Assembly (NCBI GenBank): GCA_024653305.1
Contig: JANLFW010000009.1
Location: 23,129 to 62,251 of the forward strand
DNA length: 39,123 bases
Direction: 5' to 3'
From: Candidatus Acetothermia bacterium
Lineage (GTDB): Bacteria; Bipolaricaulota; Bipolaricaulia; Bipolaricaulales; Bipolaricaulaceae
Shown here: piece by piece, positions 1,462 through 11,048 of the stretch
Numbering within the stretch: position 1 is the first letter of the stretch
How the letters are laid out: each line of letters begins with the position of its first letter
Program-made: the position numbers and the translations under genes
The notes under the pieces: model-generated
What the model was told of the DNA's origin: nothing
The model's input: the letters and a program-made list of their open reading frames with translations, nothing else
Database searches by the model: none

Positions 1462-2671
1462 CCTCCCCTAGGCTGAACAGCACGCAAAGAACAGCCCTCT
1501 CCGCCGCGTGACCATCGCCGTAGGGCCACCCTAATTCCACCCCAGGCCGAGCCTCTAAGGCCGCCTGAACAATCCGCCCCGGGTCGGAGCCCACGAGGGT
1601 GTTCCACCCTGCCTCCACCGTCTCCACCCATTCCGTCTCCTCCCGCAGGGTCACACAAGGCACCCGAAAGAAAAAGGCCTCCTTCTGGACCCCGCCCGAG
1701 TCGGTGAGGATCACCCGGGCGTTCTTCTCCAAAATCAGCATGTCCAGGTAGGAAACCGGATCAAGCACTTGTACATCCATTGGGCGAAGACCTATCGCAT
1801 CCAATTGCTTCCGCGTGCGAGGGTGAACGGGAAGGATCACAGGAAGGACCTCCCGCGCTATTTGCTCCAGGCCCTCAAAAATGGCCCGCAGCCGTTCCGG
1901 CTGGTCGGTGTTCTCCGACCGGTGGACGGTGGCCAGGGCATAGCCCTTGGGCTCAAGGCCGAGCTCCCCGAGTATCCGGGACTTGCGCTCGGCAAGCTCC
2001 CCGTAGAGGAGCACGGCGTCGTACATGACGTCGCCGGTGTTGGCTACTACGGGTCCGTGGTGCGTAGTCCGTGGTGCGTAGTGCGCTGTGCGTGGTCCGT
2101 TGTGCGTGGTCCGTGGTCCCATAGTCTGCGGTGCGTCGTCAAGGGGGAGGAGGTGGCCGGCGTTGAGGATGTTGGTGAAGCCTTCGCGGCGGAGGTTTTC
2201 CACAGCGGTCTTGGTCGGGCAGAAAAGAAGGCTTGAGACATGGTCGGTGAGGAGCCGGTTGATCTCCTCGGGCATCCGCCGGTTGAAACTGCGCAGGCCC
2301 GCCTCCACGTGGGCTACGGGGATGTGGAGCTTGGCTGCGGCCAGGGCTCCGGCCAGGGCAGTGTTGGTATCCCCGTAGACCATCACCAGGCCCGGCTTCT
2401 CCTTGAGGAGCACTTCTTCAACGCGTTTTAGCATCTCGCCGGTTTGGCAGCCATGCGTGCCGGAGCCCACGCCCAGGTGGTAGTCCGGGGCCTTCAAACC
2501 CAGCTCATCGAAGAAGACCTGGGACAGCTCGTAATCGTAATGCTGGCCGGTGTGGAGCAGAACTTCTACGAGCTGATCACAACGCTCCTCATTGTAATGG
2601 GCGATTGCGCGAAGAATTGGGGCAGCCTTAATAAATTGAGGCCTGCAACCGACAACGTCAATAATCTTCAT
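1445..2671 (-). CDS. wbpI: UDP-N-acetylglucosamine 2-epimerase, non-hydrolysing (WbpI/WecB family)
   Basis: It inverts C2 of a UDP-2-acetamido sugar. With the neighbouring wbpA/B/D/E-type genes the probable product is UDP-2,3-diacetamido-2,3-dideoxy-D-mannuronate for a surface polysaccharide. About 408 residues from ATG 2671, which follows GAGGAG; the upstream in-frame GTG at 2704 is less likely. Typical motifs are GCRPQFIKAAP at the start, HTGQHYD, VYGDTNTALAGALAA, HVEAGLRSF, PEEINR, TVHRSENTD and LTDSGGVQKEAFF. The gene is unusual in carrying about 35-40 extra residues near the centre (GPRTTHNGPRTAHYAPRTTHHGP). These are encoded by a degenerate heptamer array at 2053-2136 that keeps the frame. 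WecB (UDP-ManNAc) is the alternative function. Confidence 0.88.
   Translation of the reverse strand: MKIIDVVGCRPQFIKAAPILRAIAHYNEERCDQLVEVLLHTGQHYDYELSQVFFDELGLKAPDYHLGVGSGTHGCQTGEMLKRVEEVLLKEKPGLVMVYGDTNTALAGALAAAKLHIPVAHVEAGLRSFNRRMPEEINRLLTDHVSSLLFCPTKTAVENLRREGFTNILNAGHLLPLDDAPQTMGPRTTHNGPRTAHYAPRTTHHGPVVANTGDVMYDAVLLYGELAERKSRILGELGLEPKGYALATVHRSENTDQPERLRAIFEGLEQIAREVLPVILPVHPRTRKQLDAIGLRPMDVQVLDPVSYLDMLILEKNARVILTDSGGVQKEAFFFRVPCVTLREETEWVETVEAGWNTLVGSDPGRIVQAALEARPGVELGWPYGDGHAAERAVLCVLFSLGEDAHLS
2053..2136 (+). repeat. Degenerate heptamer array (GTSCGTR) inside the epimerase gene
   Basis: Contiguous 7-nt units on the plus strand include GTCCGTG, GTGCGTA, GTCCGTG, GTGCGTA, GTGCGCT, GTGCGTG, GTCCGTT, GTGCGTG and GTCCGTG, then two eroded units and a phase-shifted one. 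Three units are 21 nt, so the minus-strand translation repeats every seven residues (about TTHHGPR). The array is in frame inside the coding sequence, at a point where homologues go straight on to the GDVMYDA motif. Confidence 0.9.
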
Positions 2672-2798: not shown

Positions 2799-3123
2799 CT
2801 ACGGCTGTCGTTCATAGATCACCTTCCCTTCCTGTAGAGCGGTCCTGTAGATGAGACCGATTGAGTCCTTATAACGCTCAAGATCTTCCGAGGTGGCCAC
2901 CACCACATCCACCGCCTGACCTACCCCGATCAGATTCATGTAGATGCGCTGAGCCAAATGTCTTTGATGAACACCAGATTTAACGACTAACAGGTCTAAA
3001 TCGCTGTTTGGGACCATTCTCTCGCGTGCTGCGGAGCCAAAGAGTCTTATCGGGGTCCGCAACTTCCACAATCCGTCGTACAATCTCATCGAGCACGCGA
3101 GGGGACACCGTGCGCACACTCAT
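2799..3123 (-). pseudogene. MNT-type nucleotidyltransferase, frameshifted
   Basis: From ATG 3123 the frame reads MSVRTVSPRVLDEIVRRIVE then VADPDK, the usual N-terminus of a minimal nucleotidyltransferase. About 5 nt appear to be missing near 3045, and the rest (LFGSAARERMVPNSDLDLLV, then IGVGQAVDVVVAT) continues in another frame. The GS...DLDLL metal-binding motif survives in the second half. MNT proteins usually act with HEPN proteins as toxin-antitoxin pairs, but no HEPN gene adjoins this copy; the HEPN gene of this window is near 9 kb. The in-frame GTG at 3119 would give an unrelated N-terminus, so a broken gene is the better reading. Confidence 0.75.
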
Positions 3124-3199: not shown

Positions 3200-4369
3200 T
3201 CAACGATGACGGCTCGCGCCAAAGAATGCTCGTATGCTATGGACCACGTACTCTTGCTCATCCTCGGTGAGCTCGGGGAACATGGGAAGGGAGAGGACCT
3301 CGCGGCTCGCCCGCTCGCTCTCCGGAAGGTCCCCCTCATGGTAGCCGCGGCCCTTAAAGCAAGGTTGCAGATGGAGCGGCAGAGGGTAGTAGACCTCGGT
3401 GCCGATCCCATGCTGCTTGAGGTGCTCCCGCAGGGCGTCGCGACGGCCATCTTCGACACGGATTGTGTATTGATGAAAGATGTGGGTGCGATCCGGAGCC
3501 CTGTAAGGTAGCACAATCCCTGGCAGGCTGCCGAGGAGTTCATCATACCGATCGGCGATCCGCTGGCGGGCGGCCGTCCACTCCGCCAGGTGGGGCAGTT
3601 TAGCCCGGAGGATCGCGGCCTGGAGGGCATCGAGGCGGGAGTTGTAGCCCACCATGTGGTGGTAGTACTTGGGCTTTGAGCCGTGGACCCGAAGCAGCCG
3701 AACCCGCTCGGCAAGATCGTCGTCGTTCGTCACTACCATCCCGCCATCGCCATAGGCCCCGAGGTTCTTGGTGGGGAAGAAGCTGAAGCAACCGAGGTGG
3801 CCAATCGTACCCGCTTTGCGGGTTGGTCCGTGGTGCGTAGTGCGTTGTCCGGAGTATTCGGCGCCAATGGCTTGGGCGGCGTCTTCGACCACGTAGAGGC
3901 CGTATTCCTTGGCCAGGGCCATGATCTCGTCCATGTCGGCCATCTGGCCGTAGAGGTGGACGGGGATCACCGCCTTCGGCGGAGTCCGTGGTCCGGAGTC
4001 CGTGGTCAAAATACGCCTTACATCGGCGGGGTCGAGATTGAAGGTGTGGGGGTCGATGTCCGCAAACACCGGGGTGGCCCCCAAGTTGTGCACCACCCCG
4101 GCGGTGGCGAAGAAGGTGAAGCTCGGGACAATCACCGCATCGCCGGGGCCGATCCCGAGCGCCCTGAGGGAAAGGAGAAGGGCGTCGGTGCCGCTCGCCA
4201 CGCCGATGGCGTGCTTGACCCCACAGAACTCGGCGACCTCCCGCTCCAAGGCCTCCACCTCCGGGCCCATGATGAATCGCCCCGAGGCCACCACCCGGCC
4301 GATGGCGGCGTCGATTTCGGGCTTGATGGCCTGATACTGACGGGTTAGGTCAAGAATGGGAATGTGCAT
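3200..4369 (-). CDS. wbpE: DegT/DnrJ/EryC1 sugar aminotransferase (WbpE type)
   Basis: A PLP-dependent aminotransferase of 389 residues that would transfer an amino group to C3 of the 3-keto UDP-sugar made by the WbpB-type enzyme. The start ATG 4369 follows AAAGGAGATGA. Motifs include DLTRQY, GVASGTDALLLSLRALG, VEDAAQAIGA (PLP-binding Asp), FSFFPTKNLGAYGDGG (Schiff-base Lys in PTKNLG) and VGYNSRLDALQAAIL. Two short insertions relative to homologues, GQRTTHHGP and TDSGPRTPP, are encoded by heptamer repeats at 3826-3853 and 3984-4004 and do not break the frame. The preceding four-helix-bundle frame overlaps the start by 25 nt. Confidence 0.9.
   Translation of the reverse strand: MHIPILDLTRQYQAIKPEIDAAIGRVVASGRFIMGPEVEALEREVAEFCGVKHAIGVASGTDALLLSLRALGIGPGDAVIVPSFTFFATAGVVHNLGATPVFADIDPHTFNLDPADVRRILTTDSGPRTPPKAVIPVHLYGQMADMDEIMALAKEYGLYVVEDAAQAIGAEYSGQRTTHHGPTRKAGTIGHLGCFSFFPTKNLGAYGDGGMVVTNDDDLAERVRLLRVHGSKPKYYHHMVGYNSRLDALQAAILRAKLPHLAEWTAARQRIADRYDELLGSLPGIVLPYRAPDRTHIFHQYTIRVEDGRRDALREHLKQHGIGTEVYYPLPLHLQPCFKGRGYHEGDLPESERASREVLSLPMFPELTEDEQEYVVHSIRAFFGASRHR
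3826..3853 (+). repeat. Heptamer repeats in the aminotransferase gene, site 1
   Basis: Four contiguous units, GTCCGTG, GTGCGTA, GTGCGTT and GTCCGGA, encode RTTHHGP-like residues on the minus strand. They fall where homologues have a short loop before the GTIGHLGCFSFFPTKNLG block. Same unit and orientation as the array in the epimerase gene. Confidence 0.85.
3984..4004 (+). repeat. Heptamer repeats in the aminotransferase gene, site 2
   Basis: Exactly three units, GTCCGTG, GTCCGGA and GTCCGTG (21 nt, seven codons), encode the TDSGPRT insertion just before KAVIPVHLYGQ. A 21-nt insertion is frame-neutral. Confidence 0.8.
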
Positions 4370-4791
4370 GCCTCATCTCCTTTTGTCCGTGGTGCGTGGT
4401 GCGTGGTCCGTGGCCCACAGCGTGACCGCAGCTTGCTCTGAAGGTAGCGGATGAAACCGTTGAGAAGCTTCTTCACGCCAACGGCTTCAGTATACAGCTG
4501 GTCGAACTGCTCTTGGCTAACGTACCCCTGGTCGAGAGCGATGTAAAGATGGGATTGGAGCTCGGATGCAGACCTGAAGGCATAGCTTAGAAAGCGGATG
4601 AACTCTTGGTCTGACCGACTGTCGAACCCCTCGGCGATGTTTGCCATGATGGACACAGCGGCTCGCTGCAACTGGTCCTTCAGCCCGAAATCCTTGGCAA
4701 GGTCGGTCTTCTTGGACACCGCGTACACGGAACCAGCCAAGCTCCTGGCCGCCTTCCAAGCTTCGATGTCCTCGAACCGCTCAATGGCCAT
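4345..4791 (-). CDS. Four-helix-bundle protein (S23 / bAvd-like family)
   Basis: About 148 residues from ATG 4791; a GTG codon directly before it is also in frame. FEDIEAWKAARSLA at the start, LKDQLQRAAVSIMANIAEGF in the middle, then EFIRFLSYAFRSASELQSHL and ALDQGY are diagnostic of the family first named for proteins in 23S rRNA intervening sequences. The family also includes Avd, the accessory protein of diversity-generating retroelements. The core is intact. The last 25 or so residues (CGPRTTHHAPRTKG onward) come from a heptamer array and run into the next gene. The gene lies between wbpD- and wbpE-type genes and is bracketed by heptamer arrays in opposite orientation. No reverse transcriptase is visible. 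Function unknown. Confidence 0.85.
   Translation of the reverse strand: MAIERFEDIEAWKAARSLAGSVYAVSKKTDLAKDFGLKDQLQRAAVSIMANIAEGFDSRSDQEFIRFLSYAFRSASELQSHLYIALDQGYVSQEQFDQLYTEAVGVKKLLNGFIRYLQSKLRSRCGPRTTHHAPRTKGDEACTFPFLT
4385..4412 (+). repeat. Heptamer array at the 3' side of the four-helix-bundle gene
   Basis: Four units, GTCCGTG, GTGCGTG, GTGCGTG and GTCCGTG, read on the plus strand, so the gene's sense strand reads CACGGAC. They replace the natural C-terminus of the four-helix-bundle protein with a GPRTTHHAPRT tail. The orientation is opposite to the array upstream of the gene at 4832-4909. Confidence 0.88.
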
Positions 4792-4831
4792 CACTCACCG
4801 CTCCCAGCACAGGGCGCTGGGGTCTGAGACC

Positions 4832-4909
4832 CACGGACCATGCACTTACGGACTATGCACCATGGACTATGCACTATGCACCTCGGACCACGGACAACGC
4901 ACTACGGCC
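4832..4909 (-). repeat. Heptamer array at the 5' side of the four-helix-bundle gene
   Basis: Eleven degenerate units, one of them 8 nt. On the plus strand they read CACGGAC, CATGCAC, TTACGGAC, TATGCAC, CATGGAC, TATGCAC, TATGCAC, CTCGGAC, CACGGAC, AACGCAC and TACGGCC. On the minus (sense) strand this is the GTCCGTG orientation. The array fills the gap between the acetyltransferase gene and the four-helix-bundle gene. The TAG stop of the acetyltransferase (4902-4904) lies inside its first sense-strand units. Confidence 0.9.
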
Positions 4910-7824: not shown

Positions 7825-8256
7825 TTATAACACCTCGTTCGTTGGGTTCATTGGGTTCCGGGTTCTTTGGGTACGTTGAGTTCGTTGGGTTGGTTGGGTT
7901 CGTGGGGTGCGTTGGGTTTCACGGCCGAGGAGATACGTGATGAGGGCGGCGACCTGGCGGGCCCAACCGTCCAGCTGGTCGTAGACCCTCTGGAACTCTT
8001 CGCGGGTGATGTATCCCTGGTCGAGCGCCACGTACAGGTGACTCTGAAGCTCTGCTCCGAGCTCTTGGCCATGAACAAGCACTGCGTGAACTCCCAGCGT
8101 GTTTGCCATCATAGACACCGCGGCCCTGCGCATCTGATCGCAGAGCGCGTAGTCCCTCCTGCTTTCACCCTTGCCTGAGATGTCATACACAACTCGCGCG
8201 GTCTCTCTGGCCACCTGCCAGACTTTCAGATCCTCAAACCGCTCCGCCTTCGCCAC
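7825..8256 (-). pseudogene. Second four-helix-bundle (S23 / bAvd-like) gene, core damaged
   Basis: From GTG 8256 (after GAGGGGG) the protein starts AERFEDLKVWQVARETARVV and DQMRRAAVSMMAN as in the family. The conserved NIAEGF segment and about eight following residues are missing. A stretch of about 12 residues (VHAVLVHGQELG) is then read out of frame: the alternative frame there gives EFTQCLFMAKSS, the expected sequence. The frame is restored near 8058 (GAELQSHLYVALDQGYITRE). The frame stays open but the protein has lost its signature loop, so it is probably not normal. The C-terminus is QRT/NPT repeats from a 9-mer array. A degenerate 9-mer array in opposite orientation lies upstream of the start. 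Confidence 0.7.
7837..7915 (+). repeat. Degenerate nonamer array (GTTCGTTGG) at the 3' side of the second four-helix-bundle gene
   Basis: Units on the plus strand are GTTCGTTGG, GTTCATTGG, a 7-nt GTTCCGG, GTTCTTTGG, GTACGTTGA, GTTCGTTGG, GTTGGTTGG, GTTCGTGGG and GTGCGTTGG. Nine nucleotides are three codons, so the minus-strand translation is a run of QRT/NPT-like tripeptides that forms the protein tail. Confidence 0.9.
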
Positions 8257-8283
8257 GATGTGCCCCCTCAAACGGCGCCACCC

Positions 8284-8310
8284 AATAAACTCAAGGAACT
8301 CAACAACGCC
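8284..8310 (-). repeat. Short inverted nonamer array at the 5' side of the second four-helix-bundle gene
   Basis: On the plus strand the units read AATAAACTC, AAGGAACTC and AACAACGCC. On the minus (sense) strand this is the GAGTTCCTT, GAGTTTATT orientation, matching the GTTCGTTGG unit of the 3' array but inverted relative to it across the gene. Only two units are clear and the third is eroded. Confidence 0.55.
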
Positions 8311-8649: not shown

Positions 8650-9114
8650 TCACCTCTCCCCCACGATCTTCCGATGGTCCTTATCAACGGCGATCTCGAT
8701 CGTATACCCAAACGGCTTCGGCCAACACTGTCGCTCCAAAACGGCCCTGCGCCGTGAGATCTTTCCATTGCGGATCGCCTCCTCGCTTTGCAGCGGGCCG
8801 TAGTGTTCATACGGCGCACCGAAGGGATGAGCATTCGGACACCGGGAGGGAATGTAGAAGTTGTCCAACACCTTGCCCTTTTCAACCAGATCTTGGGGAA
8901 CCCCTGCCGTTGGGGGAAACTCGGAAAGGAGCTTGGCCACCACGTGTCCCCACGCTTCTTGACCTAGAGAAAGATGCAACGCCTTGACCGCCTTCTCCGC
9001 TGCTTGATGGGCCGCAAAGCATGCCCATTCGTGCCGGCCCGCCCGCCGCGAGTCCGCAGCCTGCTCGAAGTCCCGCTCCGCCTGAGCCAACCAGTCCCGA
9101 GCACGGTTCCCCAT
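8650..9114 (-). CDS. HEPN-domain protein with an unusual C-terminal tail
   Basis: 154 residues from ATG 9114. Residues 1-105 match the HEPN family found with MNT nucleotidyltransferases: RDWLAQAERDFEQA, HEWACFAAHQAAEKAVKALH, LDNFYIPSRCPNAHPFGAPYEHYGPLQSEEA. HEPN proteins are often RNases acting as toxins. After SEEAIRNGK the sequence departs from the usual end and continues for about 45 residues (RRRAVLERQCWPKPFGYTIE, then IAVDKDHRKIVGER). This suggests that a deletion fused the HEPN gene to the 3' end of another gene. No intact MNT partner is adjacent; a broken one lies at 2.8-3.1 kb. Confidence 0.75.
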   Translation of the reverse strand: MGNRARDWLAQAERDFEQAADSRRAGRHEWACFAAHQAAEKAVKALHLSLGQEAWGHVVAKLLSEFPPTAGVPQDLVEKGKVLDNFYIPSRCPNAHPFGAPYEHYGPLQSEEAIRNGKISRRRAVLERQCWPKPFGYTIEIAVDKDHRKIVGER

Positions 9115-9182: not shown

Positions 9183-9318
9183 TCACCGGACATCGGGCGC
9201 CCGCGCTCGTTTGCACATCCAGGCCCAGGCCGTCTCCACGATCGGCTCAAGCGCTGTGTACCCCGGCTCCCAGCCAAGCTCCCGCCGGGCCCGGCTGGGG
9301 TCGGCCACGAGGACTGCA
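9183..9318 (-). pseudogene. 3'-end fragment of a galE-like gene
   Basis: A frame without a start encodes AVLVADPSRARRELGWEPGY then LEPIVETAWAWMCKRARAPD and TGA. This matches the last 40 residues of the intact galE at 10,074-11,048 (LVADPSRARRELGWEPKF, IVETAWAWMQRARR). At DNA level two blocks of about 27-29 nt are identical and the rest has diverged. The fragment and galE are direct copies flanking the intact HicBA genes. Confidence 0.8.
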
Positions 9319-9333
9319 AGAGCCCCGCTCAGC

Positions 9334-10073: not shown

Positions 10074-11048
10074 CTACCGCCTGCGGGCGCGCTGCATCCA
10101 GGCCCAGGCCGTCTCCACGATGGCCTCCAGGTCCGTGAACTTGGGCTCCCACCCCAGTTCCCGCCGGGCCCGGCTGGGGTCGGCCACCAGCGCCGCCGGG
10201 TCCCCCGGCCGCCGGGGGGCTTCCACCGCTGGGATCTTCCGCCCCGTCACCCTCCGGCAGGTCTCCACCACCTCCCGCACCGTGTACCCGCGGCCGATCC
10301 CAAGGTTGTACGCCCCGCCCGCCCCTCCCTCCATCATCCTCTCCAGGGCCAGCACATGGGCCCGGGCGAGGTCGGAAACATGGATGTAGTCCCGCACCGC
10401 CGTCCCGTCCTTCGTCGGGTAGTCGGTCCCGTAGATCTCCAGGTGTGGCCGCTTCCCCGCCGCGGCCTCGAGGACGATCGGGATGAGGTGGGTCTCCGGG
10501 TCGTGGAGTTCCCCGATCTCCCCCTCCGGGTCGGACCCGGCGGCGTTGAAGTACCGGAGGGCGATGTACCGCAGCCCGTACGCCCTGGCGTAGTCGGCCA
10601 GGATCTCCTCGACCACGAGCTTCGTCCGGCCGTACGGGTTCTTGGGCTGGGTGGGGTGATCCTCCGGGATGGGCAACGCCACGGGATCCCCGTACACGGC
10701 GGCGCTGGAGGAGAAGATGATCGCCTTCACCCCGTGGGCGAGCATCGCCTGAAGGAGGTTCAAGGTTCCAGCCACGTTGTTCCGGTAGTACTTCTGGGGG
10801 TCAGCCACCGACTCCGGCACCGAGGTGTGGGCGGCGAAGTGGATCACCGCGCAAATGGGATGCCGGGCGAACGTCCGCTCAACCAGGCACGAATCGGCAA
10901 GGTCGCCCTGGATGAACTGCTCGCACAGGACAAGCTCGCGATGGCCGGTGGAGAGGTTGTCCAGCACCACCACCGGGTAGCCACGCCGGAGGAGCTCCTT
11001 TACCGTGTGGCTCCCGATGTAGCCCGCCCCGCCTGTAACTAGGATCAT
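10074..11048 (-). CDS. galE: UDP-glucose 4-epimerase
   Basis: It interconverts UDP-glucose and UDP-galactose and completes a Leloir route with galT at 24.8 kb. 324 residues, full length for bacterial GalE: VTGGAGYIGSHTVKELLRRG (NAD-binding), HFAAHTSVPESV, FSSSAAVYGDP, NPYGRTKLVVEEIL with the catalytic Tyr and Lys, RYFNAAGSDP and GTAVRDYIHVSDLA. The start ATG 11048 follows GAGGAGGGGAG. A heptamer array (11,061-11,088) lies directly upstream, between it and a dead hicA remnant, and a copy of its own 3' end lies at 9.2-9.3 kb. Confidence 0.95.
   Translation of the reverse strand: MILVTGGAGYIGSHTVKELLRRGYPVVVLDNLSTGHRELVLCEQFIQGDLADSCLVERTFARHPICAVIHFAAHTSVPESVADPQKYYRNNVAGTLNLLQAMLAHGVKAIIFSSSAAVYGDPVALPIPEDHPTQPKNPYGRTKLVVEEILADYARAYGLRYIALRYFNAAGSDPEGEIGELHDPETHLIPIVLEAAAGKRPHLEIYGTDYPTKDGTAVRDYIHVSDLARAHVLALERMMEGGAGGAYNLGIGRGYTVREVVETCRRVTGRKIPAVEAPRRPGDPAALVADPSRARRELGWEPKFTDLEAIVETAWAWMQRARRR

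Follow-up and report, generated by a model that had tools for sequence, protein, structure and literature searches.

In the 39,123-nt stretch of DNA analysed here (the window), the IVP2 locus is probably a degenerating copy of a very small mobile (selfish) element that resembles an IVS and is terminated on both sides by tandem arrays in inverted orientation. Genes bracketed by such arrays occupy positions that relatives leave empty, which makes the unit look like a minimal mobile element. Transcript folding, the Coxiella intervening sequence (IVS) and the matches of the protein fold point to a selfish element of the IVS type, which would be processed by RNase III where transcribed. The initial annotation had paired two helix-bundle loci by their repeat layout; we add to it the disruption of the IVP2 copy, the existence of mini-elements that lack the IVP gene, and the likely mobility of the element.

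The IVP2 locus and its arrays

The focal locus comprises three features.

7825..8271 (-): IVP2, a disrupted four-helix-bundle gene (PF05635/TIGR02436) with a 148-aa open frame; NIAEG...GS core lost
7837..7918 (+): IVP2 3' array, nine recognisable 9-mers GTTCGTTGG (CCAACGAAC on the gene strand), overlapping the 3' end of the ORF
8280..8306 (-): IVP2 5' array, three degenerate inverted 9-mers immediately upstream of the ORF

IVP2 is a PF05635/TIGR02436 member by profile matches above the curated cut-offs, scoring 58.8 bits against PF05635, in two pieces (cut-off 33.8), and 48 bits against TIGR02436 (cut-off 24), in agreement with its previous assignment as a four-helix bundle. The nonamer array that had been placed at its 3' side was recovered by TRF at 7837-7918 with period 9, 9.3 copies and the consensus GTTCGTTGG, one unit being disturbed at about 7853-7861. 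However, this array does not flank the gene as had been stated, but lies inside the ORF at 7825-8271 (-), where it codes for the C-terminal tail ...RTPRTQPTQRTQRTQRT. In the 200 bp upstream of IVP2, the best 27-base match to (TCGTTGGGT)3 was 21/27, located at 8280-8306 and found on the minus strand only, that is, inverted. This score was reached by none of 1000 first-order shuffles (maximum 20) and by none of 191 other 200-bp pieces of the window (maximum 19), which rules out chance similarity of the 5' units and upholds the short, degenerate, oppositely oriented set described before. By pattern search of the whole genome (G000), the IVP2 nonamer arrays occur at this one place only; in sequence they most resemble the nonamers of three loci that belong to other families within the window's phylum, L053, L047 and L067.

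The helix-bundle gene is the only gene between the arrays, and no transposase or recombinase is encoded there. The locus lies between protein genes, outside any 23S rRNA helix. A known RNA family was rejected as its identity, as the Rfam search of the window gave no match. In the draft genome of the congener G001, the interval from UGDH to HEPN, in which IVP2 lies, has no match to the family.

The same layout had been claimed for the first locus, IVP1, and it is indeed present there, with heptamers on the 3' side and inverted heptamers on the 5' side of an intact gene.

4345..4794 (-): IVP1, intact four-helix-bundle gene, the comparison locus; PF05635 120 bits, TIGR02436 116 bits
4388..4413 (+): IVP1 3' heptamer array, GTSCGTG (repeat search)
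4832..4900 (-): IVP1 5' heptamer array, inverted (repeat search)
2052..2140 (+): solitary heptamer array with the IVP1 unit in a UDP-GlcNAc 2-epimerase-like gene, read through in frame
3826..3846 (+): solitary heptamer array with the IVP1 unit in a DegT/DnrJ aminotransferase gene (pattern search)
3980..4007 (+): second solitary heptamer array in the DegT/DnrJ aminotransferase gene (repeat and pattern search)

The array at 2052-2140 is an in-frame insertion relative to orthologues of the epimerase gene. Across the whole genome, pattern search confined IVP1-type heptamer arrays to ~3 kb around IVP1. The AlphaFold2 model of IVP1 has four helices (pLDDT 91) and in Foldseek matches 2gsc and 2rld and, more weakly, Avd 4dwl and 8ub7.

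Decay of the IVP2 copy

The N- and C-terminal parts of the IVP2 protein match the family, and NTLGVHAVLVHGQELGAELQ stands between them. Translated in the +1 frame, that stretch of the DNA gives EFTQCLFMAKSS, for which the relatives have the corresponding EFVQFLFVAKGS. Residues E54, G55 and S74, invariant in 40 homologues, are absent from IVP2, and the intact core (N-I-x-E-G and S-x-x-E), kept in IVP1, is missing. Because the +1 frame still matches the relatives, a deletion of ~30 nt and a second small shift must have taken out the invariant core, and the frame stays open despite this loss. Judged by its reading frames, IVP2 is a relic, a decaying copy of the element.

Another family relic, further decayed, is L002 (G000:C1). 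Its apparent counterpart, L004 (G001:C88), still has remnants of AAGTCAA-type arrays. In both members of the genus the relic adjoins an apparent tRNA-Ser gene (tRNA read by eye), and an SRP-RNA-like stretch, also judged by eye, lies upstream of L004 in G001.

Inverted array flanks across the family

Inverted flanks were detected by local alignment of two sequences per family gene, the upstream flank, reverse-complemented, and the downstream flank. The cut-off, a score of at least 30, was fixed on the first locus set and then kept unchanged for the other sets. The 158 family loci comprised 65 from the window's phylum, 13 from plasmids (mostly cyanobacterial) and 80 from named contigs spanning Bacteroidota, Proteobacteria, Acidobacteria, Cloacimonadota, Patescibacteria, Chloroflexi and other phyla. 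Among these loci, which are the best-scoring matches rather than a random sample and come in many cases from draft MAGs, 101 of 158 scored at least 30, compared to about 1 of 1,400 control places. The cut-off was reached by 60% of the 65 loci from the window's phylum (0/513 random places of equal geometry), by 10 of the 13 mostly cyanobacterial plasmid loci, and by 62.5% of the 80 loci on named contigs (1/891 control places). These counts reject the possibility, raised in the initial annotation, that most homologues lack flanking repeats; about 36% of the family loci fell under the threshold. One archaeal-labelled contig, from Methanophagales, scored 29, just under the cut-off, and inverted array flanks probably extend to some archaea.

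Direct repeats between the flanks were much rarer (28/158 loci), and none of the 30 HEPN control loci had inverted array flanks when tested both ways, the gene being off-centre in some of them. The arrays are two-sided, with periods of 7-9, and are not found at the HEPN control genes, so terminator hairpins were rejected as their cause. The unit length was 7 nt in 86 loci, 8 in nine and 9 in five, with the same period on both sides in 82 of 83 loci. The 5' flank was G-rich in 90% of the loci and the 3' flank C-rich in 69%. A phage origin was likewise rejected, because tblastn found no family match in phage records.

Occupied and empty sites

At the B|C junction of a four-gene operon on Nostoc plasmids, five plasmids have a 3-nt gap and three others carry an element of ~420 nt or longer, which consists of a AATCAGGAGTCAG array, the gene and a CTGACTTCTGGATT array. 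This element has a possible target duplication of 3-5 bp, CTA or TTCTA, and other sites have imprecise boundaries; a consistent target-site duplication was not found across the occupied and empty sites compared. The C|D junction of the same operon is empty in most plasmids, and in L094 it is occupied by another family member, whose unit also differs. Further occupied/empty pairs were seen in cyanobacteria, with imprecise ends. L105/L201 was rejected as a clean empty-site pair, since another repeat occupies the site. In the window's operon, the AcT|DegT junction measures 39 nt and is empty in G020, and it is filled in G000, G004, G007, G010 and G009/G006 by family members of differing clades and units. 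In G002, the same junction is occupied by a nucleotidyltransferase-like gene.

The comparison of occupied with empty sites suggests that the element is mobile. Against mobility, the IVP protein has no known catalytic fold, and the insertion boundaries are imprecise.

Array pairs without the gene were also found. At the A|B junction of L187 and L190, 60-140 nt without coding sequence lie between inverted arrays of the AGTCAGG unit, and a mini-element of this kind interrupts the IVP gene of L191. In the mini-elements at the L190 A|B junction and in L191, the inverted heptamer arrays enclose a hairpin of the CACCACTAAATCGGAGATTTAGTGGTG type. Two in-frame insertions, of 87 and 132 nt, are present in the G009 aminotransferase gene; both are IVP-less inverted arrays with the unit of the neighbouring element and are absent from three orthologues.

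The family gene was also observed between CRISPR genes (cas10|cmr3, cas6|cas4) on the cyanobacterial plasmids L098, L099 and L105, and in L095 it separates the genes for ribonucleotide reductase subunits.

Solitary arrays around the gene

The frequency of heptamer arrays was 17.4 per 10 kb within 300 bp of the gene, and then 4.8, 1.8, 1.8, 1.4 and finally 0.5 at 5-9 kb, compared to a background of 0.1 per 10 kb in 400-kb samples of two complete genomes. Among 85 solitary arrays, 68% matched the unit of the nearest gene, versus 22% for units of other genomes. Orientation was also biased, with 46 of 58 solitary arrays in that of the 3' array. This holds on both sides of the gene, and side-dependent orientation was therefore rejected; avoidance of stop codons in coding sequence may lie behind the bias. 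In L046, L055, L058 and L048, CGTCACG arrays lie at near-equal distances from the gene (about 420, 845, 1720 and 3500 bp), as if most junctions between the genes of a conserved multi-gene locus were marked by them.

These frequencies bear on an explanation in which the arrays come first: the heptamers would arise by slippage or through another spreading agent, and the gene would just insert into or between them. Heptamer repeats are common in bacteria without a known cause (PMC4692102, PMC4679880), and short repeat-like stretches are present in two empty sites (L197, L199), both of which would fit this explanation. However, the background frequency is low, the pattern searches of G000 place arrays only near IVP1 and IVP2, the empty sites in G020 and at Nostoc B|C have no array, and a gene landing in a direct array would be expected to have direct rather than inverted flanks. 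We consider this explanation improbable.

Repeat unit and protein phylogeny

Array similarity was correlated with protein identity (Mantel r 0.38, reached in 0/500 permutations; 0.37 after GC correction). Above 70% protein identity, arrays were common to 92-100% of homologue pairs, while diverged copies within one genome (<70% identity) had related arrays in 0/10 pairs. The proposed pairing of every gene copy with a repeat unit of its own thus holds for the sequence of the unit, but not firmly for its length, which is weakly clade-bound: we counted 10 changes of length, against a shuffled mean of 13.7 and a minimum of 11 in 300 shuffles, and about 3 origins of 9-mers against 4.9 in shuffles. 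On the coding strand, the heptamer 3' arrays have the common core N-N-A-C-Y-N-N (55 non-redundant arrays), and the ACY core gave an EM score of 97.6, compared to 75.1 ± 3.5 for column-permuted units.

A conserved ACY core at a fixed 7-nt spacing, a unit that tracks the protein clade and arrays that closely flank the gene would also be expected from autoregulation. TRAP binds regularly spaced triplets. In a TRAP-like manner, an oligomeric protein would bind the tandem units in its own mRNA, the inverted arrays being a stable regulatory structure that undergoes ordinary horizontal transfer with the gene; pentameric relatives of the protein are known (PMC4990558). We consider autoregulation unlikely, given that gene-less mini-elements with the same ends lie inside other genes (two of them in one enzyme gene), that solitary arrays extend up to 9 kb from the gene in a distance-dependent manner, and that the sites differ among closely related plasmids.

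Proposed element and mechanism

In the mobile-element reading, which we prefer, an intact element would comprise one four-helix-bundle gene (product of ~120 aa) between two inverted arrays built of short tandem units, of which the 5' one is G-rich (RGT core) and the 3' one C-rich (ACY core). In the transcript, the two arrays are predicted to pair as a terminal stem, like the ends of 23S rRNA intervening sequences. Folding of the predicted transcripts placed both arrays in the terminal stem, with a clear excess over shuffled flanks in Nostoc L187 and a modest one in GC-rich elements, IVP2 among them. By predicted folding, the IVP ORF is thus enclosed by terminal inverted repeats that can pair as a stem. 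RNase III could cut this stem, as is known for rRNA IVSs only, and such cutting would make the element tolerated in operons and rRNA. The protein, likely a pentameric ring related to Avd, would bind the arrays or the stem and take part in the spread of the element. Loss of the gene would leave solitary arrays, in the form of STRR-like heptamers.

The resemblance of the fold to Avd 4dwl and to the DGR RNP chains 8ub7/8ubb, together with arrays that look like templated short-unit synthesis, would also fit a retroelement-type system, in which a reverse transcriptase, with the Avd-like protein as its partner, would add telomere-like arrays to the ends of targets. This we regard as very unlikely. 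No reverse transcriptase adjoins the window loci, and an RVT_1 match is absent from G000, G001 and the complete genome G006, which has four family genes; reverse-transcriptase dependence was rejected on the lack of an RVT_1 match in the G000 genome.

Relation to known systems

Two components of this picture are already known, separately: heptamer repeats (PMC4692102, PMC4679880, PMC2700814) and rRNA IVSs (PMC4990558). The 23S IVS of Coxiella burnetii contains the S23p ORF, a 28-bp terminal stem cut by RNase III, and tandem heptamers in variable number beside the ORF (PMC4990558). The origin of S23p-encoding IVSs has been termed unclear, and a mobile-element hypothesis has been cited (PMC4990558). 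Like the 23S rRNA IVS, the elements described here encode a PF05635/TIGR02436 protein, measure ~0.4-0.5 kb and have terminal inverted repeats predicted to form a stem. Unlike it, they are located between protein genes of operons and plasmids instead of in rRNA, their ends are whole tandem arrays whose unit varies by copy, and IVP-less derivatives exist.

STRR or heptameric simple repeats have been reported in cyanobacteria, Xanthomonas, Beggiatoaceae and Geobacter (PMC4692102, PMC4679880, PMC2700814), and no transfer mechanism was evident for heptamer repeats (PMC4679880). They share with the array elements short tandem units, often 3-6, in mainly intergenic positions. The STRR heptamer TAACTGA is compatible with the ACY core, and AGTAGGG- and GGAACAG-type heptamers flank the family gene in Nostoc. 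Unlike the array elements, STRR heptamers have been described as repeats without a source. Term searches of PMC4692102 and PMC4679880 found no mention of the family gene, and in the literature searched, mostly open-access, no paper ties the family to heptamer repeats or reports inverted tandem arrays around the family gene outside rRNA.

The four-helix-bundle fold is shared with Avd of diversity-generating retroelements (4dwl, 8ub7; TM-score 0.8 by target length), but identity is about 12%, and Avd needs a reverse transcriptase and a template RNA, neither of which was seen here. REP/REPIN are similar in combining short non-autonomous DNA with inverted ends and a related full-length gene copy. 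They are mobilised by RAYTs, which are Y1 transposases. In contrast, the elements described here have tandem arrays as ends, and their only protein is a helix bundle that does not look like an enzyme.

We regard it as an evenly balanced question whether the array elements and their gene-less derivatives form a widespread minimal mobile class that is the source of many STRR-type heptamers, with rRNA IVSs as one special case. The gene family is known mainly from insertions in rRNA genes, and such an element could explain short repeats scattered in many bacterial genomes. One type of element that has a defined gene, defined ends, gene-less derivatives and both occupied and empty sites would link the origins of heptamer repeats and S23p IVSs, and both questions could then be tested in cyanobacteria that can be cultured. 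In addition, a large family of 'function unknown' with solved structures would gain a biological context.

Other features of the window

The sugar-nucleotide region of the window also contains an MntA-like nucleotidyltransferase fragment (2799-3119) and a HEPN-domain gene (8650-9114), homologues of which recur at shifting positions in related operons. At 9201-9326, 41 aa repeat the C-terminus of another epimerase, the one encoded at 10074-11048, with 79% identity, representing a duplicated gene fragment.
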